Origin: Desulfobacula sp.
Lineage (GTDB): Bacteria; Desulfobacterota; Desulfobacteria; Desulfobacterales; Desulfobacteraceae
Direction of reading: 5' to 3'
Length of the DNA stretch: 64,000 nt
NCBI GenBank assembly: GCA_023701135.1
Contig: JAMPXP010000002.1
Coordinates: forward strand, 124,001 to 188,000
Positions 37,403-51,267 of this stretch are shown one piece after another. The notes under the pieces are model-generated. The model saw only the letters and a list, made by a program, of their open reading frames with translations, made no database searches and was not told where the DNA came from. Position 1 is the first letter of the stretch. Each line of letters opens with the position of its first letter. Position numbers and translations under genes: made by a program.

Positions 37403-37954
37403 CTACCCGCTATCTCTTAAGGCATATTGGCCTGAGGCCAGGATCAGGGTCTCTTCCACACACCAGGGGGAATAGAGATGGGGTCGGCAGAGTGTTTCTT
37501 CAAGCCATTGCTTCCAGCCGATCCATTGTACAGCATGGATTTCATCCGGGTTGGGGGTTACGGAACCGCTGCAATAAGCCATATAGATGGGACAGATTTC
37601 GTTTTCCATAATGCCGTCTTTTGAAAAACAATATCGGTAGTCAGATACTTTTTTAACAGCAACCGGTTCTATTCCCAGCTCGAACCGCGTTCGGCGGATC
37701 ACCGAATCTTCGTAGGATTCTCCGGGCAGGGGATGGCCGCAGCAGGAATTTGACCAGACCAGGGGCCAGGCTTTTTTTCCTGCTGACCTCTGCTGAATCA
37801 GCAGCTTTTTGGAAGCGCTGAAGAGAAAAAGAGAGAAAGCGCGGTGGAGGGGGGTATCTGATGAATGAACACGGGACTTTTTTTCAATGCCGACTTCCCT
37901 GTCTTTTTCATCCACCAGCACAACATATTCTTCAGGGTTCATAAAATCAGCCAT
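37403..37954 (-). CDS. idi: isopentenyl-diphosphate delta-isomerase, type I
   Basis: Nudix-fold enzyme that converts isopentenyl diphosphate to dimethylallyl diphosphate (DMAPP). The 183-aa protein carries LHRAFSLFLF near residue 37, the active-site Cys in WSNSCCGHPLPGE near 67-77, the RRTRFELGIEP Nudix segment, and the Glu pair in MENEICPIYMAY near 116. The start overlaps the riboflavin kinase-HAD gene by 8 bp, so it is translationally tied to the operon. In a UbiD/UbiX operon its likely purpose is to supply the prenyl donor for prenylated FMN rather than general isoprenoids; that purpose is inference. Confidence 0.92.
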   Translation of the reverse strand: MADFMNPEEYVVLVDEKDREVGIEKKSRVHSSDTPLHRAFSLFLFSASKKLLIQQRSAGKKAWPLVWSNSCCGHPLPGESYEDSVIRRTRFELGIEPVAVKKVSDYRYCFSKDGIMENEICPIYMAYCSGSVTPNPDEIHAVQWIGWKQWLEETLCRPHLYSPWCVEETLILASGQYALRDSG

Positions 37955-39053
37955 AGAGTTTCAGCACCCTGGGCAGATCGGAAATAGAATCAAGGATGCA
38001 ATCCGGGTTTTTCCGCAACAGATCTTCATGGTTGTCAAACCCGGTCAAAACCCCGATGGTTTTCATGCCCGCGGCTTTGCCGGCAACCATATCAACGGAA
38101 GTATCCCCCACATAGGCACAGACATCACCTTGAAGCCCCATTTTTTCACAGCAAAGAATCAAAGGATCCGGATAAGGCTTTTTCCGGGCGGCATCCCCGG
38201 CTGAAATCACTAGTTCCACAAGACCGTCAACCCCGGCCTGTTCCAGGATTTTCATCTTATCTTTTATGTTTTTCTGCGGGGTCGAGGTCACAATGCCGAT
38301 CCTGACACCGCAGGCATGAAGCAGCCGAAGCACGGCCCCGGTATTGGAAAACGGCCGGACGTTTTCCAAAAAAAACTCCGAATAAGCCTCCTCAATGATC
38401 TTCCAGGCCTTTGCTTTGGTTTCTTCCAGGGTTTTACCCGTTGCTGCCGTAAGGATTTCTTCCCATTGGAATGAGTCATTCTGTGCGGCCTTTAAAATCT
38501 TTAATCGCGGCACCTTTGGCAACCCCAAACGCTCCAGAGCGATTTCCACGATTCGGTAATAGGATTCAATGGAATCAATAAGGGTGCCATCAAGATCAAA
38601 GATTACCGCTTCCAGGTCAAAAAGAGGATAAGTCCCGGTCAGAGAAGCTTCCAATCCGCTGCAAAGCGTCACTTCCACCCGATCCCCGTCCGTCAGGGCC
38701 AGGATATCCCTGAGCCGCAACGGCGCCAGGATTTCCATGACATGGCGGCCGTGAATGGCCACATGATCATTTGGCCTGATCCATGCCCCTTTTACGGGAC
38801 CAATCCATACCGGCAAAGCCCGTGATGAACAAAAAGTCTCATCCGGCGGAACCAAGTCTTTCCATTCTTTGCTTGAAAGCGTGTCAAGACATTCAATATC
38901 ATCCGATTCAATCTCAAGATTGAGGGTTCCGGGAAAAGGGGTGAACCCGAATTTTTCCCTGCACCGCTTTATAACCCAGGGAAGCGCTGTAAAAAAAGCG
39001 GCCTTGTTTGCCCCTGAAAACACTTTGCCGGATATCACAACCATATTATTCAT
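37947..39053 (-). CDS. fusion: CTP-dependent riboflavin kinase (DUF120) + HAD phosphatase
   Basis: A two-domain protein of 368 aa. Residues about 1-135 match archaeal-type riboflavin kinase, which makes FMN using CTP: ISGKVFSGANKAAFF, the diagnostic GFTPFPGTLNLEIE, and HGRHVMEILAPLRLRDIL with DGDRVEVTL. Residues about 150-368 are a HAD phosphatase with intact VIFDLDGTLIDS, IGIVTSTPQKN, the Lys in ARKKPYPDPLIL and YVGDTSVDMVAG. I use ATG 39053; the frame is open 13 codons further up. A kinase and phosphatase in one chain next to UbiX suggest FMN supply plus a dephosphorylation step (possibly DMAPP to DMAP). The phosphatase substrate is not known. Confidence 0.88.
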   Translation of the reverse strand: MNNMVVISGKVFSGANKAAFFTALPWVIKRCREKFGFTPFPGTLNLEIESDDIECLDTLSSKEWKDLVPPDETFCSSRALPVWIGPVKGAWIRPNDHVAIHGRHVMEILAPLRLRDILALTDGDRVEVTLCSGLEASLTGTYPLFDLEAVIFDLDGTLIDSIESYYRIVEIALERLGLPKVPRLKILKAAQNDSFQWEEILTAATGKTLEETKAKAWKIIEEAYSEFFLENVRPFSNTGAVLRLLHACGVRIGIVTSTPQKNIKDKMKILEQAGVDGLVELVISAGDAARKKPYPDPLILCCEKMGLQGDVCAYVGDTSVDMVAGKAAGMKTIGVLTGFDNHEDLLRKNPDCILDSISDLPRVLKLYG

Positions 39054-39387
39054 GTTGATTTTTCTGAAACCATTTCTTTTTTTGAAAATCATCCGGAGTT
39101 AAGGCTTCCCTCTGACCGATCATGGTATGCAGCCGCTTTAAAATCTCATGATCTTTTTCAAGAAAGGCCTCAAAGGAACTGATGGTCCGGTTCAAAGTCA
39201 AGTCAAGCCGGGGCCGGATTTCTTTCATCACACCCTCAGGTAAAAGCCTGTAAGCCACAAAAAGATTTTCAGTCCAGATATCCAGGGCTTTTTGATCCAT
39301 CTCCGCCATACTTTTTTTCTGATACACATAGCCCTCAAGAGCGCCAATGGATGCGGAAAATTCATAAAGCTGAGTATATATATGCAT
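39046..39387 (-). CDS. small protein of unknown function in the phenol operon
   Basis: A 113-aa charged, mostly helical protein with no Cys, signal or membrane segment that I can see; I do not recognise a family. Features include YEFSASIGALEGYVYQKK near residue 8 and LDLTLNRTISSFEAFLEKDH near 67. Its end overlaps the start of the riboflavin kinase-HAD gene, and it follows the HAD gene by 57 bp. That gap contains a long T/A homopolymer tract on the coding strand side and no good ribosome-binding site. Its fixed place between two phosphatases suggests a helper or subunit. Confidence 0.6.
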   Translation of the reverse strand: MHIYTQLYEFSASIGALEGYVYQKKSMAEMDQKALDIWTENLFVAYRLLPEGVMKEIRPRLDLTLNRTISSFEAFLEKDHEILKRLHTMIGQREALTPDDFQKKKWFQKNQHE

Positions 39388-39444
39388 GCTTTTTTTCTTT
39401 TTTTTTTAAAACCTATCGGATACCCCGACCTGTGTCAAGTCGGA

Positions 39445-40134
39445 TCACCGATCTTCATTGAATTCAACAAGAATATGAGCAAGACCGGACAAAGAAGATA
39501 TCCGGAACCTGGCCATACTGCCATCTTCACCGGTCACCCGGCTTTCTCCGCCTGAAAGAAAGCAGGAGTGCATGGGGACGGCCTGGGCCGCCCGGATATC
39601 ATTGACGGAATCGCCGATGAAAAGGGCCCGGTCCGGGGGCACCCCGAGCCGTTCAAGGGCCAGGATCAGTCCTTCCGGAGCGGGCTTGATGCGGGAGACC
39701 TCATTTCTGGATAAGATGATGTCAAAATAGTCTGAGAGCCTGAATTTTGACAGGACCCCATGGACGGCGCTGGCTCCGCAATTGCTGACCACGCCCAGGC
39801 GGTATCCGGAGGCGGCAAGGGTGCCCAGCAGGGAAAGAGTGTCGGGATAAGGAGCCCAGCGGCTAAGAGCATCCCTGTCATATGTGTCATAGATAACCCC
39901 GAGCTGGTCAAACAATTGGGCGGATTTTCCGGAATCCCAGTCCCGGGTCAGGTCCCGGGTGGTGTTGAACAGGTCGGCATAATCGGGGGAAGGGCTGTAT
40001 CGCCGGGTATCAATGCCCGAGGCGATAAGGACGGGAAGGATTTCCCGGACGGCCTCATCCAGACGCCATTGAAAATCCACCAGGGTTCCTTCAAGATCAA
40101 AAAGGATAAGGTCAAACCTCCTGTTTTTTGTCAT
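39445..40134 (-). CDS. HAD-superfamily phosphatase, possible phenylphosphate carboxylase delta-like subunit
   Basis: A 229-aa haloacid dehalogenase-type hydrolase. Motif I is LILFDLEGTLVDF with nucleophile Asp13, but the second Asp of the usual DxD is Glu15. Motif II GVVSNCGAS, the motif III Lys in RIKPAPEGLILAL and motif IV FIGDSVNDIRAAQ are present. The delta subunit of Thauera phenylphosphate carboxylase is also a HAD-type protein, so this could be its counterpart; a role in making DMAP for UbiX is the alternative. It lies 8 bp downstream of the TIGR04076-like gene. Part of its sequence is duplicated at 37358-37401. Confidence 0.8.
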   Translation of the reverse strand: MTKNRRFDLILFDLEGTLVDFQWRLDEAVREILPVLIASGIDTRRYSPSPDYADLFNTTRDLTRDWDSGKSAQLFDQLGVIYDTYDRDALSRWAPYPDTLSLLGTLAASGYRLGVVSNCGASAVHGVLSKFRLSDYFDIILSRNEVSRIKPAPEGLILALERLGVPPDRALFIGDSVNDIRAAQAVPMHSCFLSGGESRVTGEDGSMARFRISSLSGLAHILVEFNEDR

Positions 40135-40142
40135 GAGAGGTC

Positions 40143-40457
40143 TTACAGTTTTTCAATTTTAAACAGAACCGGCCTGAACCAGTCGGTACAGCCTGACACC
40201 GTTACCCCTCTTTGGCCTATCCAGGGGAATTGGGCGCCGCTGATAATGGCCAGGATGTCCTGCCGGATATCGGCCCAGGCCCAGGGGCAGAAATTTTCCG
40301 GCATGTCCCACTCGGAATAGATCAGGAATTCATCCCCTTCCTTGACCTTGGTGCACAGGGCATGGTGTTTCATTTCCGGAGTCATATAGGCGTCAATGAT
40401 GTCCTTGTTCAGGGACCGTTTGATGACGGTGATTTTGGCCTTGGGCTGAAGTGTCAT
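40143..40457 (-). CDS. TIGR04076-like small protein
   Basis: A 104-aa protein resembling the TIGR04076 family: KAKITVIKRSLNKDIIDAY at the start, then CTKVKEGDEFLIYSEWDMPENFC split by a short linker, CPWAWADI-type aromatic patch and a late Cys in VTVSGCTDWF. No function is established for the family that I know of. It sits between UbiX and the HAD gene, 13 bp from ubiX, in the position of the small gamma subunit gene of phenylphosphate carboxylase clusters. It could be an accessory subunit of the UbiD enzyme. Confidence 0.7.
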   Translation of the reverse strand: MTLQPKAKITVIKRSLNKDIIDAYMTPEMKHHALCTKVKEGDEFLIYSEWDMPENFCPWAWADIRQDILAIISGAQFPWIGQRGVTVSGCTDWFRPVLFKIEKL

Positions 40458-40470
40458 GATTTCCTCCCTG

Positions 40471-41106
40471 CTATTTCATGGCAATAACCTTGGACCCGTT
40501 TTTTTTACCGGGCGTTTGAGACACCGTCTCCAGTTTTTCCAGTTCCGAATTGTCCCAGCGTTTGAAAAGATCATGCTCGATGCCCATATAGTCCAGGACC
40601 TTGCCCACGGACTGGTTGATGATATCGTCAATGGTCTTGGGATGGTGGTAAAAAGCCGGGATGGGCGGCACAATATGAGCCCCCATTTCCGCCGCCTGGG
40701 TCATAAGCCTGAGATGACCGACGTGGAGCGGGGTTTCCCGGAACATGAGGGCCAGTTTCCGTTTTTCCTTGAGCTGGACATCGGCGGCCCGGATGAGCAG
40801 GTTTTCATTATAGGAATTGGCGATGCCCGACAGGGTCTTCACCGTACAGGGGGCGATGACCATGCCCATGGTCTGGAAGGACCCGCTGGCCACGGAGGCG
40901 GCCATCTGTTTGTTGCTGTAAGTGATATCGGCCATGGCAAGGACCTCGTCCACATCATAGTCGGTTTCGATCCTGATATTGAGTTTTCCGGCCTCGGAAA
41001 TGATGAGATGGGTTTCAATGCCCCGATTTTTAAGCACCTCCAGCATCCTGACCCCATAGATCACCCCGCTTGCCCCGGCTATTCCTACGATCAATCGTTT
41101 TGTCAT
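40471..41106 (-). CDS. ubiX: UbiX flavin prenyltransferase
   Basis: Joins a dimethylallyl group to FMN to make prenylated FMN, the cofactor of UbiD decarboxylases/carboxylases. I start at 41106 (MTKRLIVGIAGASG), with GGAGAG just upstream, giving 211 aa. Family marks are GIAGASGVIYGVRML, the Ser/Thr patch in APCTVKTLSGIA, RKLALMFRETPLHVGHL and PPIPAFYHHPKTIDDII near the C-terminus. It lies in the same run as the UbiD gene, so cofactor and enzyme are likely made together. Confidence 0.93.
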   Translation of the reverse strand: MTKRLIVGIAGASGVIYGVRMLEVLKNRGIETHLIISEAGKLNIRIETDYDVDEVLAMADITYSNKQMAASVASGSFQTMGMVIAPCTVKTLSGIANSYNENLLIRAADVQLKEKRKLALMFRETPLHVGHLRLMTQAAEMGAHIVPPIPAFYHHPKTIDDIINQSVGKVLDYMGIEHDLFKRWDNSELEKLETVSQTPGKKNGSKVIAMK

Positions 41107-41140
41107 ACCGCTCTCCTTCCCGGTTTTCAATAAACCCCTG

Positions 41141-41791
41141 TTAGGGTTCGTTTTTCGTCGCTTCCACCAGATGATAGCCCTTTTCTTCAATCAAAGAGAC
41201 AATTCGTTTAAAACATTTGGCCTCAAACCGGATAATGAGCCGGTTTTTACCGGTATCCGGATCCTTCAGGGTAAACAGGCCCTTGATGTCCATACCCATC
41301 ATGAAAATATCCTCAAGGATGTTCCGGATGGTGGTTTTGGAATCTCCGTTCAGCTCGATGGAAACCCCGTGGAGCCCTTCATCTCCGCCCAGGAGCCGGC
41401 TGAGGGCCTTGGCCAGGTCCCGGTTGGACAAGGTTCCCACCAGTTTGTCCCCGTCCATGATGGGCAGAAAGGTCCGGCCGAACTGTTTGCCTTTCTGGAT
41501 GGCGGTTTCAACCGTATCATTGACATTCAGGGTGACGGGTTTCCGGACCATGATGTCCTTGACCTTGAGGCGTTCGTTAAAATATTGGACCTCGTAAATA
41601 TCCTGGGTGGAAATGGCCCAGGAGGCGGCTTCCCTCAAATCCCGCCGGGCCAGAAAGCCTCTGAATTTGTTGTTATCCACCACGGACAGAAAAGGGACTC
41701 TTTTTTCTTCAAAAAGGTGCATGGCCTCTTTGGCCGTGAGGTCGCTTGAAATGGTGTCGGGATTTTTACGCATCCAGTTTTTGACAATCAT
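41141..41791 (-). CDS. ppsC: phenylphosphate synthase gamma-like subunit (CBS domains)
   Basis: A 216-aa (about 24 kDa) protein with two CBS domains (MIVKNWMRKNPDTIS..., residues about 1-58; DIMVRKPVTLNVNDTVETAI, about 77-135) and a C-terminal ACT-like region. The 24-kDa third subunit of Thauera aromatica phenylphosphate synthase is a CBS protein that stimulates the reaction, and size and context match. Start 41791 is set by GGAGG 8 nt upstream. Unlike in Thauera, the gene is separated from ppsAB by three other genes. Confidence 0.75.
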   Translation of the reverse strand: MIVKNWMRKNPDTISSDLTAKEAMHLFEEKRVPFLSVVDNNKFRGFLARRDLREAASWAISTQDIYEVQYFNERLKVKDIMVRKPVTLNVNDTVETAIQKGKQFGRTFLPIMDGDKLVGTLSNRDLAKALSRLLGGDEGLHGVSIELNGDSKTTIRNILEDIFMMGMDIKGLFTLKDPDTGKNRLIIRFEAKCFKRIVSLIEEKGYHLVEATKNEP

Positions 41792-41883
41792 TGATTTTTC
41801 CTCCGCTTTCTGGGTTGTATCACAATACCCTGGTCTGTGAACAGGGCAGACCGTTTTCATCTGAAAGATTTATGTGTCCGGCA

Positions 41884-43101
41884 TTAAAACATCTCCAGGG
41901 CCATCCGGGTGACCTGCTCGCTGAACAAGGGATCTTCCATATTGGCATCCACTTCAATGATTTCTATATTTGAATTCAGCAGGCCCTTCAAGGCCTCGGT
42001 AAAGATCCGGTCTTCTCCGGGATCATAGGTCGGGTTTCCCTTTGCATCCACCGAGGACCAGCCTTGCAGGGGAACCATGATTTTGACTGGAGCCTTGGCC
42101 TGGTTGAGCTTTCTGGCGAATTCCGAGGCCACCTGCTTCAATTCCTCCGGGGAAAGCCTGATCCAGGTCCGGTATTTGTCCAGGTCATATTTCCGGCGCT
42201 CGTAAAATTCTTTTTTGTATTTGGACCGGGAGGGGGTCATATGGTTCACGGAACAGGTGGAGATGATCTGGGGAATTCCGGCCTTTCCGGCGGATTCCAG
42301 GCGATGGGGTCCCCCGTCCCGCATATAACCGAAATAATGCTCCCCCACCCCGCCGGGGGCCAGGTCAATGACCCCCTGGAAAAAGCCTTCGGCAATCATT
42401 TTTTCCATGGCCTGGTCCCCGACGCCGGCGGCGGAAAACCCCGTGATCTGGTATCCCTCTTTTTCAAGGGCGGTCCGGACCGTACCGGCGCATTGTTCGC
42501 AGGGCCCCAGCATGGTCATGGCAATGGTTTTTTTGCTGTGGACGGCCAGATCGTTTTTCACATATTTGATCATGCCTTTCATGGCATAGCAGGCACGGTC
42601 CATGACGTTTTTCAGCATATCCGTCACACCGGAGATTTCGATGACGGAATGAAACAATAGAATGTCGCCGGTGCCGATATATTTGGTGGAAAGTCCGGGA
42701 AGGGCCGCCGTGGAGGAGATCATGAGTTTCGGGATGCCGAAGGGCAAAGACCGCATGACGTCCGTGGCCATGAGGGACCCGGTGGACCCGCCGATGGCCA
42801 TGACCCCGTGGATTTTTCCGGCCGCATACAGGTCCTTGGCGATTTTGGTGGCCCCGTCAATGATGATATTGGTGATGGTGGACCTCTCCCTGGATTGGTT
42901 GATTTCCTCAATGGAGCTTCCGCCGGCCGTGGCCACATGGGCCGGGGTCAGCTCGGCCCGGGAAGGTTCCTTGCCCCGCATGGACAGATCCATGAGCAGG
43001 GGCAGGACCTCGATTTCCTTGAATTTGTATTTCAGATACCGGGTTTCTTCCCTTTTGGTATCCAGGGTGGAAATAATTAAAACGGTTTTGGGTGTATTCA
43101 T
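41884..43101 (-). CDS. Tm-1-like / UPF0261 family ATP-binding protein
   Basis: A 405-aa protein of the Tm-1-like family, named after a plant resistance protein with an ATP-binding N-terminal domain. Visible are VLIISTLDTKREETRYLKY at the N-terminus, GVMAIGGSTGSLMATDVMRS near residue 100, IGTGDILLFHSVIEISG near 142 and LAPGGVGEHYFGYM in the C-terminal half. Bacterial members have no firmly known reaction. It sits between the aryl-CoA ligase and the CBS subunit, so it may take part in aromatic handling, but nothing in the sequence says how. Confidence 0.82.
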   Translation of the reverse strand: MNTPKTVLIISTLDTKREETRYLKYKFKEIEVLPLLMDLSMRGKEPSRAELTPAHVATAGGSSIEEINQSRERSTITNIIIDGATKIAKDLYAAGKIHGVMAIGGSTGSLMATDVMRSLPFGIPKLMISSTAALPGLSTKYIGTGDILLFHSVIEISGVTDMLKNVMDRACYAMKGMIKYVKNDLAVHSKKTIAMTMLGPCEQCAGTVRTALEKEGYQITGFSAAGVGDQAMEKMIAEGFFQGVIDLAPGGVGEHYFGYMRDGGPHRLESAGKAGIPQIISTCSVNHMTPSRSKYKKEFYERRKYDLDKYRTWIRLSPEELKQVASEFARKLNQAKAPVKIMVPLQGWSSVDAKGNPTYDPGEDRIFTEALKGLLNSNIEIIEVDANMEDPLFSEQVTRMALEMF

Positions 43102-43166
43102 GGGTTTTGCCTTGGATAAAGCGGTGCGGCAGGGTCAATGATCATCCCCGCCGCCCGCTTCAGGGT

Positions 43167-44822
43167 TTATGCCAGACCGAGTCTTTCCCGGATATCCTTT
43201 TTCAGGGTTTCCTTGTTGATCTTGCCGGAATCCCCCACCGTGGGGAATTCAGCCACGATTTCCAGGTGTTCGGGAAGCTTGAACATGGCGATTTCCTTGG
43301 CTTTCAAATGATCTACCATGTCTTTAAAGGTAAAGGTCATGCCGGCCTTGGGAATGACATAGGCGGCGCAGCGTTCCCCCATTTCCTTGTCCGGATAACC
43401 GACAATGGCTACGGAGCCGATGGCCGGGTGATCGGCCAAAAGCCCTTCCACTTCAGCCGGGTAGATGTTCTGCCCCCCGCGGATGACCATGTCCTTGGCG
43501 CGGCCGAGAATCCAGAGGCAGCCCTGGTCAAATTTGACAATGTCTTCCGTGGTGGTCCAGCCGTCCCTGTCAAATACCGTGGAGGTCAGCTCCTCATCCC
43601 GGTAATACCCGGCCGGTGCATGGGGCCCCCTGAAATAAAGGATGCCGGGCTCCCCGTCCGGAACGTTCAAGGCCCTGTTTTCCTGGTTGGCGAGACGGAC
43701 CTTGTTGCCTGGCAGCATTCTGCCCACGGTTCTTCGTCTCAAATCCTTTGAATCCTCCACCCGGCATCCTGAAACCGACCCCATGTCCTGGGTCCCCAAG
43801 TCACTGGTGATGGAGGCGCCAAAGGCGGCTTCGGCTTCTTCCGCCACCTGGGGCGGCAGATAGCCGCCGGCGGACCGGATAAACCTGAGGGAACTCAGAT
43901 CGTATTTGGATACGTCGGCCTCCAGCATGCGGATGAGGTGGGTGGGTACAACGCCGATGGCCGTGGCTCTTTCCTTTTCGATCAGGGCCAGGGCCGCTTC
44001 CGGTGAAAATTCTTCCAGCATCACGGTTTTGGCCCCGGCAATGGGGGCGGCAAAATAGGTCAGGGTCCCGGCGGCCCCGCCGGCATGGGGGGCAATGGCC
44101 ATGGTGATATCATCCTTGGTCAGGCTCCAGATATCCACCCGCCCCTTGGATGTGCAGATGCGGGGAGCGGCCGGCCATTCCACCAGCTTGGGAATGCCGG
44201 TGGTGCCCGAGGTGGTGGTGAGGATGGCCACGTTTTCAATGGCGTCCAGCCGCCTTTTGGCCAGGACGTCCTTGTCAATGGGCAGCCGGACCCGTTTTTC
44301 AACCATGGCGGTCAGGGAAAAGGTGCCGGCCGGTGCTCCCGGCGGAACCAGGTCGTCAAACAGAAAAATATTCTTTAAATGGGGAAAATCCTTCTGAAGA
44401 TCCTCATACATTTCAAGATAATTAAATTTGTTGTAGGTATGAAGAATGATGACGGCCGAGGCCTTGGTCCTATCCACCATATAGGTCAGCTCTTTTTTCC
44501 TCAGATAGGGGTAAACCGTCAGGGAAATGAGCCCTGCCCGCTCACAGGCGATCCGGGCCAAAAAGCCGTATACGCTGTTGGGGGACTGGATGATGATCCG
44601 GGAATGCTTTTCAATTCCCATCTCCACAAAGGAGACGGCCATGGCATCCACAAGCTCCACCGCCTGTTTCCAGGTGAGCCTGTATTTTGAGTCCACCAGG
44701 GCCTCCTGGTCCGGGATGTCCCTGGCGTTTTTTTCCCAGAAATCATAAAAGGTTTCCTGGGTCCAGTAGCCGTCCCTGACAAATTCATCGGTCATTGCCT
44801 TTTTATATCGAATGGGTTTCAT
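43167..44822 (-). CDS. aryl-CoA ligase (4-hydroxybenzoate-CoA ligase-like)
   Basis: AMP-forming ligase of 551 aa that would activate the carboxylation product to its CoA thioester. It has the AMP-binding P-loop TTTSGTTGIPKLVEW near residue 206, the A5 motif DLGTQDMGSVSG near 338, DGWTTTEDIVKFDQG near 422, LGRAKDMVIRGGQNIYP near 438 and the catalytic Lys in DSGKINKETL near 537. It resembles 2,3-dihydroxybenzoate-AMP ligase relatives as well as hydroxybenzoate-CoA ligases, so the substrate may be 4-hydroxybenzoate or a dihydroxybenzoate such as protocatechuate. It is 15 bp below the UbiD gene. Confidence 0.82.
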   Translation of the reverse strand: MKPIRYKKAMTDEFVRDGYWTQETFYDFWEKNARDIPDQEALVDSKYRLTWKQAVELVDAMAVSFVEMGIEKHSRIIIQSPNSVYGFLARIACERAGLISLTVYPYLRKKELTYMVDRTKASAVIILHTYNKFNYLEMYEDLQKDFPHLKNIFLFDDLVPPGAPAGTFSLTAMVEKRVRLPIDKDVLAKRRLDAIENVAILTTTSGTTGIPKLVEWPAAPRICTSKGRVDIWSLTKDDITMAIAPHAGGAAGTLTYFAAPIAGAKTVMLEEFSPEAALALIEKERATAIGVVPTHLIRMLEADVSKYDLSSLRFIRSAGGYLPPQVAEEAEAAFGASITSDLGTQDMGSVSGCRVEDSKDLRRRTVGRMLPGNKVRLANQENRALNVPDGEPGILYFRGPHAPAGYYRDEELTSTVFDRDGWTTTEDIVKFDQGCLWILGRAKDMVIRGGQNIYPAEVEGLLADHPAIGSVAIVGYPDKEMGERCAAYVIPKAGMTFTFKDMVDHLKAKEIAMFKLPEHLEIVAEFPTVGDSGKINKETLKKDIRERLGLA

Positions 44823-44837
44823 AGCGCATCCTTATTC

Positions 44838-46244
44838 TTAAAATCCGAGTTCAGACCATCTTTCTTTGACTCTTTCCACCATCTTGGGATCCAGTTTGAT
44901 CTGGATGGGTTTTGGATCCCATTCATAGGGAATCGTGCAATCCATGAGAAGCCTTCCGGTTATCCATCTTGCATTGATGGGCAAGGACGGATCCAGGGGG
45001 GTGGAGCGGCCCCTCTTGATAATCTGGCAGCGGTTGGGCTGGAACCTGAAACTCATGGCATACATGACCCTGGGGATATCCCAGGAATCAATGTCTTCAT
45101 CCACCACAATCACGGTTTTAAGACCATAGGCTCCCATTTCCGTGGAAATGGCGGCCGTTAATACCTGGTCCACATGGCCGGGATACATCTGTTTCATGGA
45201 AATGATGGCCAGGAACCGGCCGGCTCCTTCCGGCGGGCAATAGCAGTTTTTCAAGCCGGGAATATTCATTTCATTAAGCTGTTGCCAGAGGGTGGCGCCA
45301 TAGGACAGGGCCATGACCATGTGAGAGTCGGTTACCGCCCGGCCGACGGTTGTTCCCCAGTGAATCGGGTTGTTTCTGTATGTCACGCATTTGACGTCAA
45401 TGAAATTTCTGGGGTCGGTCCCCACACCGGAATAGTATCCCGTGTATTCGCCGAAGGGCCCCTCTTCCATGAATTTTTCCGCATCCACAAAGCCTTCCAC
45501 AACGATTTCCGCGTGGGCCGGAATGGGCAGATCCACCACTTCCCCTTTGACCACTTCAACGGCTTTGCCACGGAAGGCGCCGGCCACATCATATTCACTG
45601 GTGAAGGCCCCAACCCGGGCGGCGCCAAGGATGAACAATATGGGGTCGCAGCCTGAAATGGAAGCACAGGGCATGGGTTTTCCAAGGGCCTGGTATTTTT
45701 TGAGCATGATGTCGGCATGTTTTCCTTTGATAAACTGGGTGCCGATCTTGTCTTTGCCCAGAAGCTGGCTTCTGTAGGTGCCCAGATTTACCCAGCCTGA
45801 ATCAGGGTCTTTTGTGATGATAAAATGGGCGGTTCCATAATATTTTCCGCCATCCAAAGGATAATAATGGGGAATCGGGAATTTGTTCAAGTCTATATCA
45901 TCGCCCATCATGATATTTTCCTTGCAGGGGGCCTTTGACCGGTCAACATACACTGGCGGGATGGGTTTTTTTGCTTTTTCAGCCCAGGCGCCATAAAGGT
46001 CGGTCAGGCTTGAATTTTCAGGCTCGCCCATGATAATGGCAAGCCTTTGCACGGTGGTGGCGGCGCTTGTGATAACCGGTGAGCTATACCCTTTGCAATT
46101 TTCAAACAGCAATGCAGGGCCCTGGGCTTCTTCATTCAATTTTGCAATATGGGACAGTTCCAGATGAGTATCGACTTCTGCAGTGATGCGCTTTAAAAGA
46201 CCTTTTTCCTCACAGATTGCAATAAAATCCCTCATGTCTTTCAT
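44838..46244 (-). CDS. UbiD-family (phenylphosphate-type) carboxylase
   Basis: A 468-aa prenyl-FMN-dependent decarboxylase/carboxylase. It has the UbiD pattern: AQGPALLFENCKG near residue 40, NLGTYRSQLLGKDKIG near 155 with the catalytic Arg, GPFGEYTGYYSG near 265 with the catalytic Glu, and AISTEMGAYGLKTVIVVDED near 365. In the presence of phenylphosphate synthase it is expected to carboxylate phenylphosphate (or a related aryl phosphate) at the para position. Thauera uses two UbiD-like subunits; only one is encoded here. It is separated from ppsB by 132 bp with a strong GC-rich stem-loop. Confidence 0.88.
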   Translation of the reverse strand: MKDMRDFIAICEEKGLLKRITAEVDTHLELSHIAKLNEEAQGPALLFENCKGYSSPVITSAATTVQRLAIIMGEPENSSLTDLYGAWAEKAKKPIPPVYVDRSKAPCKENIMMGDDIDLNKFPIPHYYPLDGGKYYGTAHFIITKDPDSGWVNLGTYRSQLLGKDKIGTQFIKGKHADIMLKKYQALGKPMPCASISGCDPILFILGAARVGAFTSEYDVAGAFRGKAVEVVKGEVVDLPIPAHAEIVVEGFVDAEKFMEEGPFGEYTGYYSGVGTDPRNFIDVKCVTYRNNPIHWGTTVGRAVTDSHMVMALSYGATLWQQLNEMNIPGLKNCYCPPEGAGRFLAIISMKQMYPGHVDQVLTAAISTEMGAYGLKTVIVVDEDIDSWDIPRVMYAMSFRFQPNRCQIIKRGRSTPLDPSLPINARWITGRLLMDCTIPYEWDPKPIQIKLDPKMVERVKERWSELGF

Positions 46245-46376: not shown

Positions 46377-47462
46377 TCAGGGATTAATCCTCCGGCCCGC
46401 CAGAAGCCCTGCGCAGATATGTTCCAGGGCCGATGACCGGGACGCCATCACCGGTTCCACTTTTTTGTCACTCCAGACCGTTTCCGGCCGGCTCTGAAGA
46501 ATCATGATTTTGGCCTGGCCGGGGGTATCCTTGTCAATGGCCCATTCAATGTCCATGGCCTTGCCGTAATGCTTTTCAATCCGTTTGCCGATTTTCGCAA
46601 GCTCAATGACATCCTTATCCACCACACACTGGATATCGGACCGTTCGGCAGGAACCGTCTGCTTGACGACGGAATGGCTGACCGGTTCCCGGGTGTACAG
46701 GATGGTTTTGTGGGATACCTTTTTTTTGATGATTTCGTCCGTGATTTTGTTGACCAGGAAATTGTCCGGCGTGCATTCGCCGCTGACAACGCTTTCCCCG
46801 AATCCCCAATTGGCGTCAACGGCGATGGTGGCCCGGTCCCCGGTGGCCGGATTCAAGGTGAACATGACCCCGGCCACCCAGGCATTGGCCATCTTCTGCA
46901 CTCCTACGGAGATTTCCACGGCTTCGTGGGGAAAGCCCATTTTTGCCCGGTAATAGATGGCCCTTGAGGTAAAAAGACTGGACCAGCATTTTTTCACATG
47001 GGTGAGAATGCCGTCCATGCCCCTGATCCAGAGAAAGGTGTCCTGCTGCCCGGCAAAACTGGCGCCGGGCAGGTCTTCTGCCGTGGCGCTGGACCGCACG
47101 GCCGCAGGAACGGCAGGAACATTGCACCGTTTGGACAATCTTCGGTAAAATTCTCCGATATAGTCCTGGAGATCATCGCACACTTCCGTGTTTTCAATCA
47201 TGGCCCGGATGGCCTTGCTGGCGGCTTCCCCGGAATCCATGTCGTTTACTTTGATCTCCTTGAGAATCTTAAAAATATCCTTTTTGATGCCTCCCTGCTC
47301 AAGAAACAGATTATAGGCTCTGGTGGTTACGGCAAAACCCGGCGGGACCGGAATCTGGGCTTTCAACAGTTCTCCCAGGCTGGCATTTTTGCCCCCCACC
47401 AGGGGGATGGAGTTCATATCGCATTCTTCAAACCAGAGGACATAGTCAGATCTTTTTTCCAT
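46377..47462 (-). CDS. ppsB: phenylphosphate synthase ATP-binding subunit (PEP synthase N-domain)
   Basis: A 361-aa (about 40 kDa) protein matching the N-terminal ATP-grasp half of phosphoenolpyruvate synthase: VGGKNASLGELLKAQIPVPP near residue 23, RSSATAEDLPGASFAG near 120, AIYYRAKMGFPHEAV and ANWGFGESVVSG near 215, and the Glu in AMDIEWAIDKD near 302. In Thauera a 40-kDa subunit of this kind works with the 70-kDa histidine-bearing subunit to form phenylphosphate from phenol and ATP, releasing AMP and phosphate. It is 9 bp below ppsA. Confidence 0.88.
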   Translation of the reverse strand: MEKRSDYVLWFEECDMNSIPLVGGKNASLGELLKAQIPVPPGFAVTTRAYNLFLEQGGIKKDIFKILKEIKVNDMDSGEAASKAIRAMIENTEVCDDLQDYIGEFYRRLSKRCNVPAVPAAVRSSATAEDLPGASFAGQQDTFLWIRGMDGILTHVKKCWSSLFTSRAIYYRAKMGFPHEAVEISVGVQKMANAWVAGVMFTLNPATGDRATIAVDANWGFGESVVSGECTPDNFLVNKITDEIIKKKVSHKTILYTREPVSHSVVKQTVPAERSDIQCVVDKDVIELAKIGKRIEKHYGKAMDIEWAIDKDTPGQAKIMILQSRPETVWSDKKVEPVMASRSSALEHICAGLLAGRRINP

Positions 47463-47471
47463 GATAATCTC

Positions 47472-49313
47472 TTACCTTTCGATGTAAACTCTTCCTGTAT
47501 CGCCGTTCAGTTTGATTTTCATGCCGGATTTGATAATGGTGGTGGACTGGCCCGTGCCGACAACGGCGGGCATGCCGTATTCACGGCAGACAATGGCGGC
47601 ATGGCTCATGATCCCGCCCACATCCGTGATAACCCCTTTGATTTTCTGGAATACCGGGGCCCAGGAGGGGGATGTGGTGGGGGCCACAAGGATTTCGCCT
47701 TCCCTGAGCTGGCCTATATCTTCGACGGATCGGCATACCCGGGCAATGCCTTCCACCACACCGGGTGATCCTGCAAAGCCTTCTATTTCATTGACCTTGT
47801 CCGGGTCCCCGATTTCCTTTAATTTGGCCCAGGCCGCCATGCTTTCATTGGTGACGCCCCAGAGAACAACGGTAAAGGGCTCGGCAATGACTTCCGGAGG
47901 GGTTCCATAGGCCGGCAGGGGACGGTGTTCCTTGAATTTCTGATACACCCCTTTTCTCCAGGCGATTTCTTCGGGCCAGTGCAGGGGACCGTATCCCTTT
48001 GTGCCCGTGGCCCAGGCCGTGACCAGGTCCCAGAGGGCTTCCTTGATTTCGCTCCTGGACAGGAACCAGATGTCTTCCTGGCCCTTGAGGAATTTGTATT
48101 CCGTCATGATGGCGGCCACTTCCCTCATTTTATTCCAGAAGACGGAATGGAACCAGTGTTCCACATAGAACATATGATTTTCAACATAGGGAAAAACTAG
48201 CTCAGCCGTTCCGTGGAGCTGGTCAAAGGTCTTCCGGTCCTCATCGGTTTTCAGAAGGCCCCGGTATTCGGTAATCAACCGTTTGCGTTCTTCTTTGACG
48301 GCATCCACGGGCCGGTCAATATTATGGCCCCCCTTTATTTTTTCAATATAAATCCGGACGGAACTCATGGGGATATTCAGGTTGTCATTCCAGGAAATAT
48401 CCTGGTGATACCATCCGGTGCCGGTGGAAATGTTAAACCAGGGATTTTTGGCCCCTTCCCAGGCCGTGATCCATTTTTTCCCGTTTTCAGAACCCTGGAG
48501 CGAAGCCATGACGTCTTTGACATCTTTGCCGTCCTTGCCGATCTGGTCCGTGAGGTTGAATTCAACGGCCAGTTTGGCCAGTTTTTTAAGCTCGTCATCG
48601 GGCCGGTACAGGAGCACATCAATCCCGGCCACCATCTGGGTGATCTTCTGTAAGGGGATGTCCGGGAAGGCCTTGGTGCAGAAATCCACAAAGATGACAT
48701 AGGAGGCATAGCCCAGGTTTAAAAATTCAAAATGATATTGCCAGCAGCGAATGCCCAGGTCGATGAGCTTGTCGTAATTTTTGATCAATTCATAGCCCGA
48801 TGAGGTGCCGACCCCGTTCTTGACCACGGAGATATCTTCCATGGCCGGGAGTTTGGTGATTTCAAGGGCTTCAAGATCGGAAATGATGGCCCTCATCTTT
48901 TTTTCCCAGTTGGCCTGGAGCTTGTCCCAGTTTTCAAAATAATAGCCTGCCCTTTCCATGAACAGGGGAACCCTTTTCTGAACCTCTTCGGGGTCCGTGA
49001 CCGGAACCGGGGTAATATACACATTGCCGTTGATGATCCGGTGGTCCACACCATACACCGGCGGGATCATGAAAATCCGGGTATTGAACTGGGACAGGGC
49101 CAGGAACCAGGCTTCATCCCAGATGATGTCAAAGGGATACATGGGTTCGGGGTAATGAAGGGCGTCATTGAACCAGAACATATTGTTTTCATAGGTTTCC
49201 CTTTCCTTGTCCTTGGTCGTAAAAAGATAATGGTAGGGATACATGCGCTCCCATCCTTCTGTTCCGGGGATTACTTCTATCTCGTGGGGATTGGGGAAAC
49301 TCTTGTCAGCCAT
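47472..49313 (-). CDS. ppsA: phenylphosphate synthase catalytic-histidine subunit
   Basis: A 613-aa (about 70 kDa) protein. Most of its length is a family-specific domain (FNDALHYPEPMYPFDIIWDE near 44). The C-terminal 90 residues are a swivelling phosphohistidine domain as in PEP synthase: GFAGSPGVVEGIARV, VAPTTSPSWAPVF, and GGIMSHAAIVCREYGMPAVV with the phosphorylated His at about residue 571, very near the His-569 described for Thauera aromatica PpsA. I start at 49313 because TTGGAGG stands 7 nt upstream; an in-frame TTG lies four codons before. First gene of the 12-gene run. Confidence 0.9.
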   Translation of the reverse strand: MADKSFPNPHEIEVIPGTEGWERMYPYHYLFTTKDKERETYENNMFWFNDALHYPEPMYPFDIIWDEAWFLALSQFNTRIFMIPPVYGVDHRIINGNVYITPVPVTDPEEVQKRVPLFMERAGYYFENWDKLQANWEKKMRAIISDLEALEITKLPAMEDISVVKNGVGTSSGYELIKNYDKLIDLGIRCWQYHFEFLNLGYASYVIFVDFCTKAFPDIPLQKITQMVAGIDVLLYRPDDELKKLAKLAVEFNLTDQIGKDGKDVKDVMASLQGSENGKKWITAWEGAKNPWFNISTGTGWYHQDISWNDNLNIPMSSVRIYIEKIKGGHNIDRPVDAVKEERKRLITEYRGLLKTDEDRKTFDQLHGTAELVFPYVENHMFYVEHWFHSVFWNKMREVAAIMTEYKFLKGQEDIWFLSRSEIKEALWDLVTAWATGTKGYGPLHWPEEIAWRKGVYQKFKEHRPLPAYGTPPEVIAEPFTVVLWGVTNESMAAWAKLKEIGDPDKVNEIEGFAGSPGVVEGIARVCRSVEDIGQLREGEILVAPTTSPSWAPVFQKIKGVITDVGGIMSHAAIVCREYGMPAVVGTGQSTTIIKSGMKIKLNGDTGRVYIER

Positions 49314-49473
49314 TTTTACCTCCAATTAAAAAATTAAGTGTTAAAAAAAACTAAACAAAAAACCTGACACCGAACCATACTTGCGGACAAAGGAGAGCAA
49401 CGGTAAGATAGAAGCCGCCAACGTACAAAGGCAGACCCGGCCATGAAATACAAACTGCAAGTATCCTGGTCCG

Positions 49474-49577: not shown

Positions 49578-50537
49578 ATGATCAATTTAAATCAATTTCG
49601 GGCCTTCTATTACGTCGCCAAATATGCGAGCTATACGGTTGCCGCGGAAACCCTCTGTATTTCCCAGCCTGCCGTGACGGCCCAGATCAAGCTGTTTGAA
49701 AACCATTACGATATGAAATTATTCAGAAAACAGGGCCGGGAGCTTTCCCTGACCCATGCGGGGAAAATATTGTTTGAAAAGGCGGAAAGGATATTCAGCA
49801 TTGAAGATGAGGTGGAGTCCACCCTGGTCGAGATCAAGGAGCTGAACCAGGGCCTTCTGGAAATCGGGTGCACCAAGGCCTATGCCAACCATATCATGCC
49901 TTCCATCATTTCCGTATTTCACAGGGCCTACCCCAATATCAAGATCATTCTTGAAGAAGGCAGTTCCATGGCCATGATCAACAGCCTCAGGGATTTTAAA
50001 AACGAGGTCATTGTGGTGGCCCAGATGGATGTCAATGATTCCAGACTTCAATTTGTCCCTTTCAGCCAGGAAGAAATCGTGGTTGTCCTTTCTGCAGATC
50101 ACCCCCTGACCCGGAAAAAAGAGATTGAATTTCACGACATTGTAAAGGAACCGGTCATCCTGAAAGGAACAGGATCAGGAACACGGAAAAAGGTCGTGGA
50201 TCTCTATGAAAAACAGAACATCATTCCCAATGTTTTTATGGAATCCAACAATACTGAATTTATCATTGACCTGGTGGAAAGGGGAGAGGGTATCTCCTTT
50301 CTTGTAAAACCATCGGTTGAGCACAAGGTCAAAACAAAAAAGATCGCTGTCCGGCGGTTAAAGGGCATCCGGCTGTTTCTGGACGTCAGCCTGGGATTTT
50401 CAAAAAACATCCCCCTTTCTCCGGCGGCCACGGCTTTTTACGATGTGGTCAAACGCTCCTTTCTTGAAGAATCCCCTCAAAACGGCATCAGGTCCATTAT
50501 GGCCAAAATCCTGGCCGGCCAATGGCAGAAAGAATAG
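49578..50537 (+). CDS. LysR-family transcriptional regulator
   Basis: Likely regulator of the divergent phenol operon. The 319-aa protein has the LysR helix-turn-helix (FRAFYYVAKYASYTVAAETL, CISQPAVTAQIKLFE) and an effector domain with KGTGSGTRKKVVDLYE near residue 200 and VERGEGISFLVKPS near 232. It is close to CysB/CbbR-type regulators in pattern. Start 49578 is chosen because AAGGA lies about 9 nt upstream and the family begins MxxLNQFRAF. The inducer would be phenol or a downstream aromatic, by inference from position. Confidence 0.87.
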   Translation: MINLNQFRAFYYVAKYASYTVAAETLCISQPAVTAQIKLFENHYDMKLFRKQGRELSLTHAGKILFEKAERIFSIEDEVESTLVEIKELNQGLLEIGCTKAYANHIMPSIISVFHRAYPNIKIILEEGSSMAMINSLRDFKNEVIVVAQMDVNDSRLQFVPFSQEEIVVVLSADHPLTRKKEIEFHDIVKEPVILKGTGSGTRKKVVDLYEKQNIIPNVFMESNNTEFIIDLVERGEGISFLVKPSVEHKVKTKKIAVRRLKGIRLFLDVSLGFSKNIPLSPAATAFYDVVKRSFLEESPQNGIRSIMAKILAGQWQKE

Positions 50538-50607
50538 GTCTGCGGGTTTACAGAGCCGGATCAGGCCTTATTTTGAAATCTGTTGTTTTCTTAGGATAAG
50601 GATTAAT

Positions 50608-51267
50608 ATGAAATTAGCTGTTTTTTCAGATGTCCACAGCTCCTATACAAAGATGCTGGCGGTCTTCAATGATATGGAAAGATACGGGATCGACCGGTAT
50701 ATCTGTCTGGGGGACATCATCGGGTATGGCAGTCAGGCCGAAGAAACCGTCCGGCTTTTGATGTCCAAAAATGTGGTTTCCGTCCGGGGGAACCATGAGC
50801 TGGCCATGTTTGACCCGGAGTATCTTGAGCTTTTCCCCAAAAGAATTAAACAGCCGCTCCTGGATAATATGGCGGCTCTTTCCACGGCATCGGTCCGGTA
50901 TCTTGAAAATACCCCGGCCTATTTAACTCTTGAAAACTGTCATTTTGTCCATGGCACGCCTCCCGATAAAATCACCACCTATATCCACGATGTGACGGAC
51001 TATTATTTAAAATCGCTTTTCAATAATTCGGACAAGCAGATTTTTTTCACAGGCCATACCCATGAGCTGGTACTGATTACCTACACGGACAGAAATTTTT
51101 ATCGCCGGAGGATCAGGGAAAACTGCACCATTCCCCTGGACCCTGGCCGGAAATATCTGTTGAATGTGGGCAGTATAGGGTTTTCACGGGATGATTTTAA
51201 CGAATCAAAATATGCCGTTTATGATACCGATAAAAAAGAGCTTATGATCCGCATGGTGAACGCATAA
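50608..51267 (+). CDS. metallophosphoesterase (YfcE/MJ0936-like)
   Basis: Dinuclear-metal phosphodiesterase or phosphatase of 219 aa. All core motifs of the calcineurin-like fold are present: FSDVHSSYTKML (residues about 6-17), LGDIIGYGSQ near 37, RGNHELAMFDP near 59, HFVHGTPP near 113 and FFTGHTHEL near 147. I start at 50608 (MKLAVFSDVHS), with AAGGATTAAT upstream. Substrate unknown; no partner gene stands out. It follows the LysR gene by 70 bp on the same strand. Confidence 0.88.
   Translation: MKLAVFSDVHSSYTKMLAVFNDMERYGIDRYICLGDIIGYGSQAEETVRLLMSKNVVSVRGNHELAMFDPEYLELFPKRIKQPLLDNMAALSTASVRYLENTPAYLTLENCHFVHGTPPDKITTYIHDVTDYYLKSLFNNSDKQIFFTGHTHELVLITYTDRNFYRRRIRENCTIPLDPGRKYLLNVGSIGFSRDDFNESKYAVYDTDKKELMIRMVNA

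Follow-up and report, generated by a model that had tools for sequence, protein, structure and literature searches.

A phenylphosphate-type UbiD operon of Desulfobacula sp. with candidate genes for the supply of its prenylated flavin cofactor

The window analysed here is a stretch of 64,000 nucleotides from Desulfobacula sp. (assembly GCA_023701135.1, contig JAMPXP010000002.1, positions 124,001 to 188,000 of the forward strand), in which a minus-strand run of 12 genes, from 49325 to 37403, groups a UbiD carboxylase and the UbiX flavin prenyltransferase with relatives of the phenylphosphate synthase subunits PpsA and PpsB, a DUF120 riboflavin kinase fused to a HAD phosphatase, and isopentenyl-diphosphate isomerase (IDI). 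This locus is best read as a variant form of an operon already known, that for phenylphosphate carboxylation, to which cofactor-supply genes have been added, and we consider it fairly probable that it is a phenylphosphate-type activation operon carrying genes dedicated to the supply of prenylated flavin mononucleotide (prFMN). Positions are those of the window; genomes and loci used in the comparisons are designated by G and L numbers. The genes of the run are as follows:

47472..49325, minus strand: PpsA-like subunit, 617 aa (NCBIfam PRK08296.1-4, 1016 bits for a cut-off of 723), whose gene also heads the cluster in relatives
46377..47462, minus strand: PpsB-like subunit, 361 aa, matching the N-terminal part of phosphoenolpyruvate (PEP) synthase models
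44838..46244, minus strand: UbiD of the phenylphosphate carboxylase beta type (TIGR02724, 479.1 bits, cut-off 468.95)
43167..44822, minus strand: AMP-binding acyl-CoA ligase (PF00501/PF13193)
41884..43101, minus strand: UPF0261 protein (PF06792/PF23189), recurring in loci with pps and DUF120 genes
41141..41860, minus strand: CBS-domain protein (PF00571 in two stretches), recurring in pps loci
40471..41190, minus strand, likely start 41106: UbiX flavin prenyltransferase (TIGR00421, 249 bits, cut-off 108.9)
40143..40457, minus strand: TIGR04076 family protein (57.3 bits, cut-off 33)
39445..40134, minus strand: HAD phosphatase with DLEGT as first motif (PF13419), hereafter the HAD2 type
39046..39387, minus strand: 113-aa protein, without a Pfam or NCBIfam match
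37947..39092, minus strand, likely start 39053: DUF120 riboflavin kinase (PF01982, 92.1 bits) fused to a HAD phosphatase with DLDGT (PF13419, 112.5 bits), hereafter the HADf type
37403..37954, minus strand: type I IDI (NF002995, 206.9 bits, cut-off 127; TIGR02150, 143.8 bits, cut-off 105.8), with relatives in the PDB

From the gene content, the family assignments and the conserved linkages, all of them observed directly, we infer a sequence of functional steps in which PpsA, PpsB and the CBS protein would phosphorylate phenol or a close analogue, UbiD would carboxylate the phosphorylated ring with prFMN, and the ligase would then activate the carboxylated product. The cofactor would be built by UbiX from reduced flavin mononucleotide (FMN) and dimethylallyl diphosphate (DMAPP). 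The DUF120 domain would provide extra FMN from riboflavin and CTP, alongside the housekeeping kinase RibF, and IDI would convert isopentenyl diphosphate (IPP) to DMAPP, which a UbiX of the Gln type would use directly, without trimming to dimethylallyl monophosphate (DMAP). Conserved linkage is what points to the supply of FMN and DMAPP.

Within the run, intergenic gaps do not exceed 132 bp (the widest being that between ppsB and ubiD), and the plus-strand open reading frames listed between 37403 and 49325 all overlap minus-strand genes. Two 8-bp overlaps join the 113-aa gene to the DUF120-HAD fusion and the fusion to IDI, whereas 57 bp separate the HAD gene at 39445-40134 from the 113-aa gene. 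The three minus-strand terminator-like matches all fall within genes, so a single transcript across the 12 genes is plausible. The start of UbiX is likely to be at 41106, where an ATG stands two residues ahead of the family match. An earlier note on this DNA, made from the sequence alone, had described a shorter stretch; the genes that it named, their places, strand and domains, and the overlaps among the last three, agree with the open reading frame list and the domain models, and to its account should be added the 113-aa gene and the beginning of the run at ppsA (49325), further upstream. The near relative G013 keeps the run at 85-99% identity (78% for one piece of the ligase), its ubiD aligning in two pieces and its ligase in three, which may reflect draft frameshifts or disrupted genes. 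Parts of the run also co-occur in more distant genomes, and this conservation speaks against a chance assembly of genes. A search of genome contigs for related loci gave only a near relative (L032, a Desulfobacula metagenome-assembled genome) and one distant HAD.

The riboflavin kinase was assigned to the DUF120 family from its PF01982 score (92.1 bits for a cut-off of 25), its core motif GFTPFPGTLN and its match to the MJ0056 riboflavin kinase (E=3e-11); the methanogen ribK model was not reached (68.9 of 168 bits). It thus has the DUF120 family and the PGTLN core in common with archaeal RibK, from which it differs in being bacterial, in being fused to a HAD and in occurring with RibF in the same genome. 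DUF120 is present in 22 of 389 genomes of the class and in 40 of 395 genomes of the phylum, and canonical RibF was found in 36 of the 39 DUF120-bearing genomes of the phylum.

The DNA surrounding 63 further DUF120 loci, 23 from within the class and 40 from other classes, was compared by tblastn, neighbours being counted up to 10 kb. A UbiX, UbiD, PpsA or PpsB homologue lies within this distance in 35 of the 63 loci (8/23 in the class and 27/40 in the other classes), a number that possibly undercounts the linkage, given the 10 kb limit and the many loci that end at contig ends; ubiX is within 250 bp of the kinase in 17 of them. As a control, the 20 strongest of the 36 RibF matches were treated in the same way, and none is near UbiX, UbiD or Pps, as against 11 of 21 DUF120 loci in the same genomes (Fisher p=1.6e-4). 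At the level of the class, UbiD is present in 18 of the 22 genomes with DUF120, and 7 of 22 DUF120 loci have a UbiD no more than 20 kb away, for an expected 0.34; this test leaves out G341, which accounts for 2 of 24 loci (L075 and L088) and has 87 UbiD matches, the start of one of them being overlapped by the DUF120 gene of L075. The proposal of the earlier note that the kinase serves as the FMN source for UbiX is supported, at the level of linkage, by these counts and by the contrast between DUF120 and RibF.

Three non-overlapping arrangements of the kinase could be distinguished among the 63 loci: beside ubiX (17), no more than 300 bp from a HAD2-type domain (6) and with a HADf type (31), none of these applying to 9 loci. 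One of the loci with the kinase beside ubiX, L226, contains PpcB and PpcA over their cut-offs, a gamma-like protein under its cut-off, a second UbiD besides these, UbiX and the kinase itself. On the kinase tree (62 rows, that is, the window and 61 of the 63 loci), the ubiX-adjacent kinases are divided between two starred clades and a single isolated row. A kinase-motif pattern missed 20 of the 62 kinases (variable first Gly; masked or cut DNA) and a second pattern matched 29 of them, and these matches were not taken as a count of active enzymes. In 23 of the 63 loci, a homologue of the 113-aa protein is encoded no more than 250 bp away from DUF120, and in G036 the two are fused (L044:6089-6856; alignment). 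Single-sequence AlphaFold models of the 113-aa protein (all helical, mean pLDDT 67.2) and of the kinase-HAD fusion (mean pLDDT 41.6) were both too poor for a fold search.

Type I IDI, to which the window gene belongs according to both NF002995 and TIGR02150, is over cut-off in only 12 of the 389 class genomes, 53 more having weaker Nudix-like matches only. In 7 of these 12 (G000, G013, G008, G147, G009, G003 and G020) its distance from ppsB is at most 10 kb, where random placement expects 0.07; since the linked genomes all belong to one family, the linkage may represent one or two events. IDI closes the operon in the window and in G013, and stands on the upstream side of the operon, beyond LysR, in G008, G147, G009, G003, G020 and G006; the IDI match of G006, 5 kb from ppsB, is partial and under the cut-off. 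It adjoins a LysR homologue at a contig end in G363, whose pps genes are on another contig, and is unlinked to pps in G260, G278, G287 and G348 (the PpsB of G348 being about 50% identical). IspH is over its cut-off in the genome of the window, from which both IPP and DMAPP can be presumed to be produced, and IDI would shift their balance. The supply of DMAPP by IDI, as the earlier note had it, is supported by linkage, though most pps loci do without it, as detailed below.

Two peculiarities of IDI genes were seen in passing. In G008 (contig 1, about 3163000-3266000), five equal-score IDI matches spaced at 19-24 kb, each accompanied at about 11 kb by one of five UbiD matches that also score equally, constitute a tandem amplification, of which the copy that was read (L181) also contains UbiX, an AMP ligase and transposase-like genes. 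In G278 and G348, an IDI-like domain is found within open frames of about 950 aa (L178, L180).

The window UbiX is the sole UbiX over cut-off in its genome, and its Gln193 aligns with the site of Phe181 in the Pseudomonas enzyme (1SBZ) and of Gln203 in the Aspergillus enzyme (6QLG). According to passages of PMC6541611, the former uses DMAP, the latter is specific for DMAPP, and UbiX of E. coli O157, with His164, uses both. The window enzyme therefore has Gln in place of the Phe that blocks the beta-phosphate of DMAPP in DMAP-dependent enzymes, and under the published residue rule it would take DMAPP itself. Among 45 different UbiX from the loci that were read (two alignments of 21 and 27 sequences, 3 being common to both), the residue is Gln in 32, His in 13 and Phe in none. 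This single residue is a weak predictor of the substrate, a residue swap being reported in the same source not to have converted UbiX specificity.

These residues bear on the full route proposed in the earlier note, in which the fused or the separate HAD would hydrolyse DMAPP to DMAP for UbiX, the operon then encoding every step from riboflavin and IPP. The fusion of one HAD to the kinase and its contact with IDI agree with such a role, as does the presence of the PpaX pyrophosphatase and of an inorganic diphosphatase model among the below-cut-off matches of the HAD, and E. coli Nudix enzymes are reported, in an extract of PMC12359138, to hydrolyse DMAPP to DMAP. Nevertheless, since UbiX of the Gln/His type accepts DMAPP (as described in PMC6541611, in the part consulted), its removal would compete with UbiX. 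Moreover, no HAD of either type stands beside the kinase in any of the 17 ubiX-adjacent loci, and HADf-linked kinases are near UbiX, UbiD or Pps in only 7 of 31 loci. DMAPP trimming is therefore unsupported, and the residue present in UbiX together with the counts of neighbouring genes led us to set it aside as a role for the HADs; we regard the full route as very improbable, and either HAD as an unlikely candidate for a required DMAPP trimmer. What stands of that route is the supply of FMN and of DMAPP. The survey of neighbourhoods by which the earlier note proposed to judge it gave a divided answer, kinases of the HADf type being mostly away from these genes, whereas the remaining kinases are near them in 28 of 32 loci.

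The two HAD types have distinct signatures, D-x-D-G-T being kept in HADf at 30 of 31 loci and D-x-E-G-T in HAD2 at 12 of 13, and distinct neighbours. HADf is a real companion of the kinase and seldom of UbiX: in 31 of 63 loci HADf and the kinase are neighbours or form one fusion, UbiX, UbiD and Pps being absent within 10 kb from 24 of these, and in G001, G008 and G009 the DUF120-HAD module sits amid unrelated genes. The fusion could accordingly be regarded as a general flavin-balance enzyme, combining a kinase with a phosphatase for FMN or another flavin phosphate, whose place at the end of the operon would be incidental. Such a design is reportedly found in the plant riboflavin kinase/FMN hydrolase (FMN/FHy), where a HAD phosphatase and a riboflavin kinase form one chain; the order of the domains there is said to be opposite to that of the window fusion, and the kinase fold unrelated. 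We consider this explanation unlikely, although not negligibly so, because the fusion overlaps IDI within the operon, kinases of the same family without HADf keep the company of UbiX, UbiD or Pps in most of their loci, and the great majority of DUF120-bearing class genomes hold UbiD.

Relatives of HAD2 adjoin UbiX in G147, G217 and G162, following it in the gene order, and in six genomes of other classes (L230, L240, L242, L249, L257 and L260) a HAD2-type domain stands directly behind DUF120, with PpsA and PpsB within 10 kb. HAD2 fits the slot of the missing phosphatase subunit of the carboxylase, and might replace PpcD by releasing phosphate during phenylphosphate carboxylation: PpcD is described as a phosphatase-family subunit in the sections of PMC6114531 consulted, and no PpcD is over cut-off in the genome, the best match (127 of 281.95 bits) being on another contig. 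Against this role, which we hold as a tentative possibility, TIGR02726 is not among the best 25 of the 36 matches of HAD2, no HAD2 relative was found at L153, L155, L156 and L158, and in L230 and L257 the HAD2 relative and the riboflavin kinase share one open frame, which speaks for a flavin rather than an aryl phosphate. Fusions to DUF120 occur for both HAD types in certain lineages, and suggest a function in cofactor repair or in the chemistry of flavin phosphates. The most likely role of HAD2 is that of a phosphatase connected with aryl-phosphate or flavin chemistry, and the kinase-fused HAD probably acts on a flavin or another phosphate.

The phenylphosphate-type character of the operon was deduced from its upstream genes. 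The PpsB-like protein corresponds to the N-terminal half of PEP synthase as a stand-alone protein and forms with PpsA the separate subunits characteristic of phenylphosphate synthase; its relatives at 67-96% identity adjoin PpsA and usually UbiD. Ligase homologues 65-98% identical occur in many pps loci, and relatives in the genus and family share nearly the same set (PpsA, PpsB, UbiD, ligase, UPF0261, CBS and UbiX, with LysR upstream). By its position and domains, the CBS protein may be a PpsC/gamma-like subunit. UbiD matches the beta (PpcB) model of phenylphosphate carboxylase, and as the single UbiD of the operon it scores 216.5 of 564.6 bits on the alpha (PpcA) model; no match to PpcC (gamma) was obtained among the 10 operon genes scanned, nor in PpsA or PpsB. 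Clusters with the beta carboxylase subunit only have been reported for Geobacter metallireducens and Desulfatiglans anilini (PMC6114531, in the portion available).

The operon could also serve aniline or another aromatic compound. D. anilini activates aniline with a similar gene set (excerpts of PMC7500099), so that phenol is one candidate substrate among others. The operon ligase is an AMP-binding acyl-CoA synthetase, as annotated in the aniline cluster of that species, whose phenol cluster has instead a phenylacetate-CoA ligase (PMC6114531, same portion). The correspondence between UbiD and the beta subunit of phenylphosphate carboxylase argues for the phenol-type substrate, however, and the D. 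anilini comparison was made by annotation words alone; we judge the alternative substrates to be somewhat unlikely.

Several observations weigh against a phenylphosphate-type operon with dedicated cofactor supply. UbiD passes the TIGR02724 cut-off by a narrow margin, the operon has no recognised PpcA, PpcC or PpcD partner, its substrate may instead be aniline or a different aromatic compound, and the refolded carboxylase of D. anilini is reported, in the consulted part of PMC7500099, to work with FMN alone. As for the kinase, only 8 of the 23 in-class DUF120 loci are near UbiX, UbiD or Pps, and the DUF120-HAD fusion is attached to the pps operon only in the window and G013, being about 18 kb from it in G008 and on another contig in G001 and G009. 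The p-values, such as that of the RibF control (1.6e-4), overstate independence, given the related species and draft contigs on which they are calculated, and the kinase tree may be compatible with a single origin of the ubiX pairing. Lastly, IDI is missing within 10 kb from 21 of the 29 loci with a PpsB of at least 67% identity, some of which end at contig ends.

Two genes outside the set discussed so far were noted near pps operons. A calcineurin-like phosphoesterase gene (50443-51267) adjoins the LysR gene in the window and is kept beside the pps operon in many relatives. An HD-domain protein (L153:3794-4396) lies between the UPF0261 and CBS genes, where the window has none; genes of similar size, not domain-scanned, occupy the same place in other pps loci.

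The operon shares with the pps-ppc clusters of Thauera aromatica and D. anilini the PpsA/PpsB pair, a beta-type UbiD carboxylase, a UbiX-like gene and a CoA ligase (PMC6114531, partial text). It differs from them by its riboflavin kinase and IDI, riboflavin and isopentenyl having 0 mentions in the main text of that source, and by lacking recognised counterparts of the alpha, gamma and delta carboxylase subunits of T. aromatica. Another comparison can be made with the UbiD-UbiX accessory systems LpdB/LpdD, in which an extra gene likewise aids the cofactor supply of UbiD (PMC10865409, selected passages); the window has precursor-supply enzymes, whereas no LpdD family match was found among the scanned operon genes. 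LpdD is described there as a chaperone binding prFMNH2. A protein with PF21758 in the pps cluster of G114 (L183:10571-10960) has LpdD as a PDB match (E=3.8e-6), a gene of the same size (not domain-scanned) occupies that place in G174 and G243, and LpdD-like matches occur in three DUF120 loci of other classes (L241, L247 and L254). Of the 63 DUF120 loci, 8 have a flavin reductase-like match no more than 10 kb away. Such LpdD-like and flavin reductase genes fit lineage-specific sets for prFMN supply.

Among the open-licence papers searched, no described locus grouping these steps was found, which leaves the novelty claim of the earlier note uncontradicted, and nothing was found on DUF120 with UbiX, on a CTP-dependent riboflavin kinase with a HAD, or on dimethylallyl monophosphate with UbiX and a phosphatase. 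A more general proposal, in which we place an evenly balanced degree of belief, is that UbiD/UbiX and phenylphosphate pathways in Desulfobacterota carry a second, archaeal-type riboflavin kinase as a dedicated FMN source for prFMN supply. This kinase would occur in several architectures (beside ubiX, with a HAD2 type beside ppsAB, or with the second HAD type), together with a dedicated IDI in Desulfobacula and a second genus of the family and with an LpdD-like chaperone or flavin reductase elsewhere, the HADs then accounting for a further stage in the synthesis or repair of prFMN.

In heterologous expression, UbiD enzymes can lack activity owing to a shortage or poor loading of the cofactor (PMC10865409, as above). 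Genomes in which an FMN kinase, a DMAPP source or an LpdD homologue accompanies such pathways would reveal which of the supply steps limit UbiD in nature, and the supply genes are candidate enzymes for CO2-fixing biocatalysis. The two HAD types and the 113-aa protein become testable as prFMN-related proteins, and the archaeal-type riboflavin kinase acquires a possible role in bacteria that are equipped with RibF as well.

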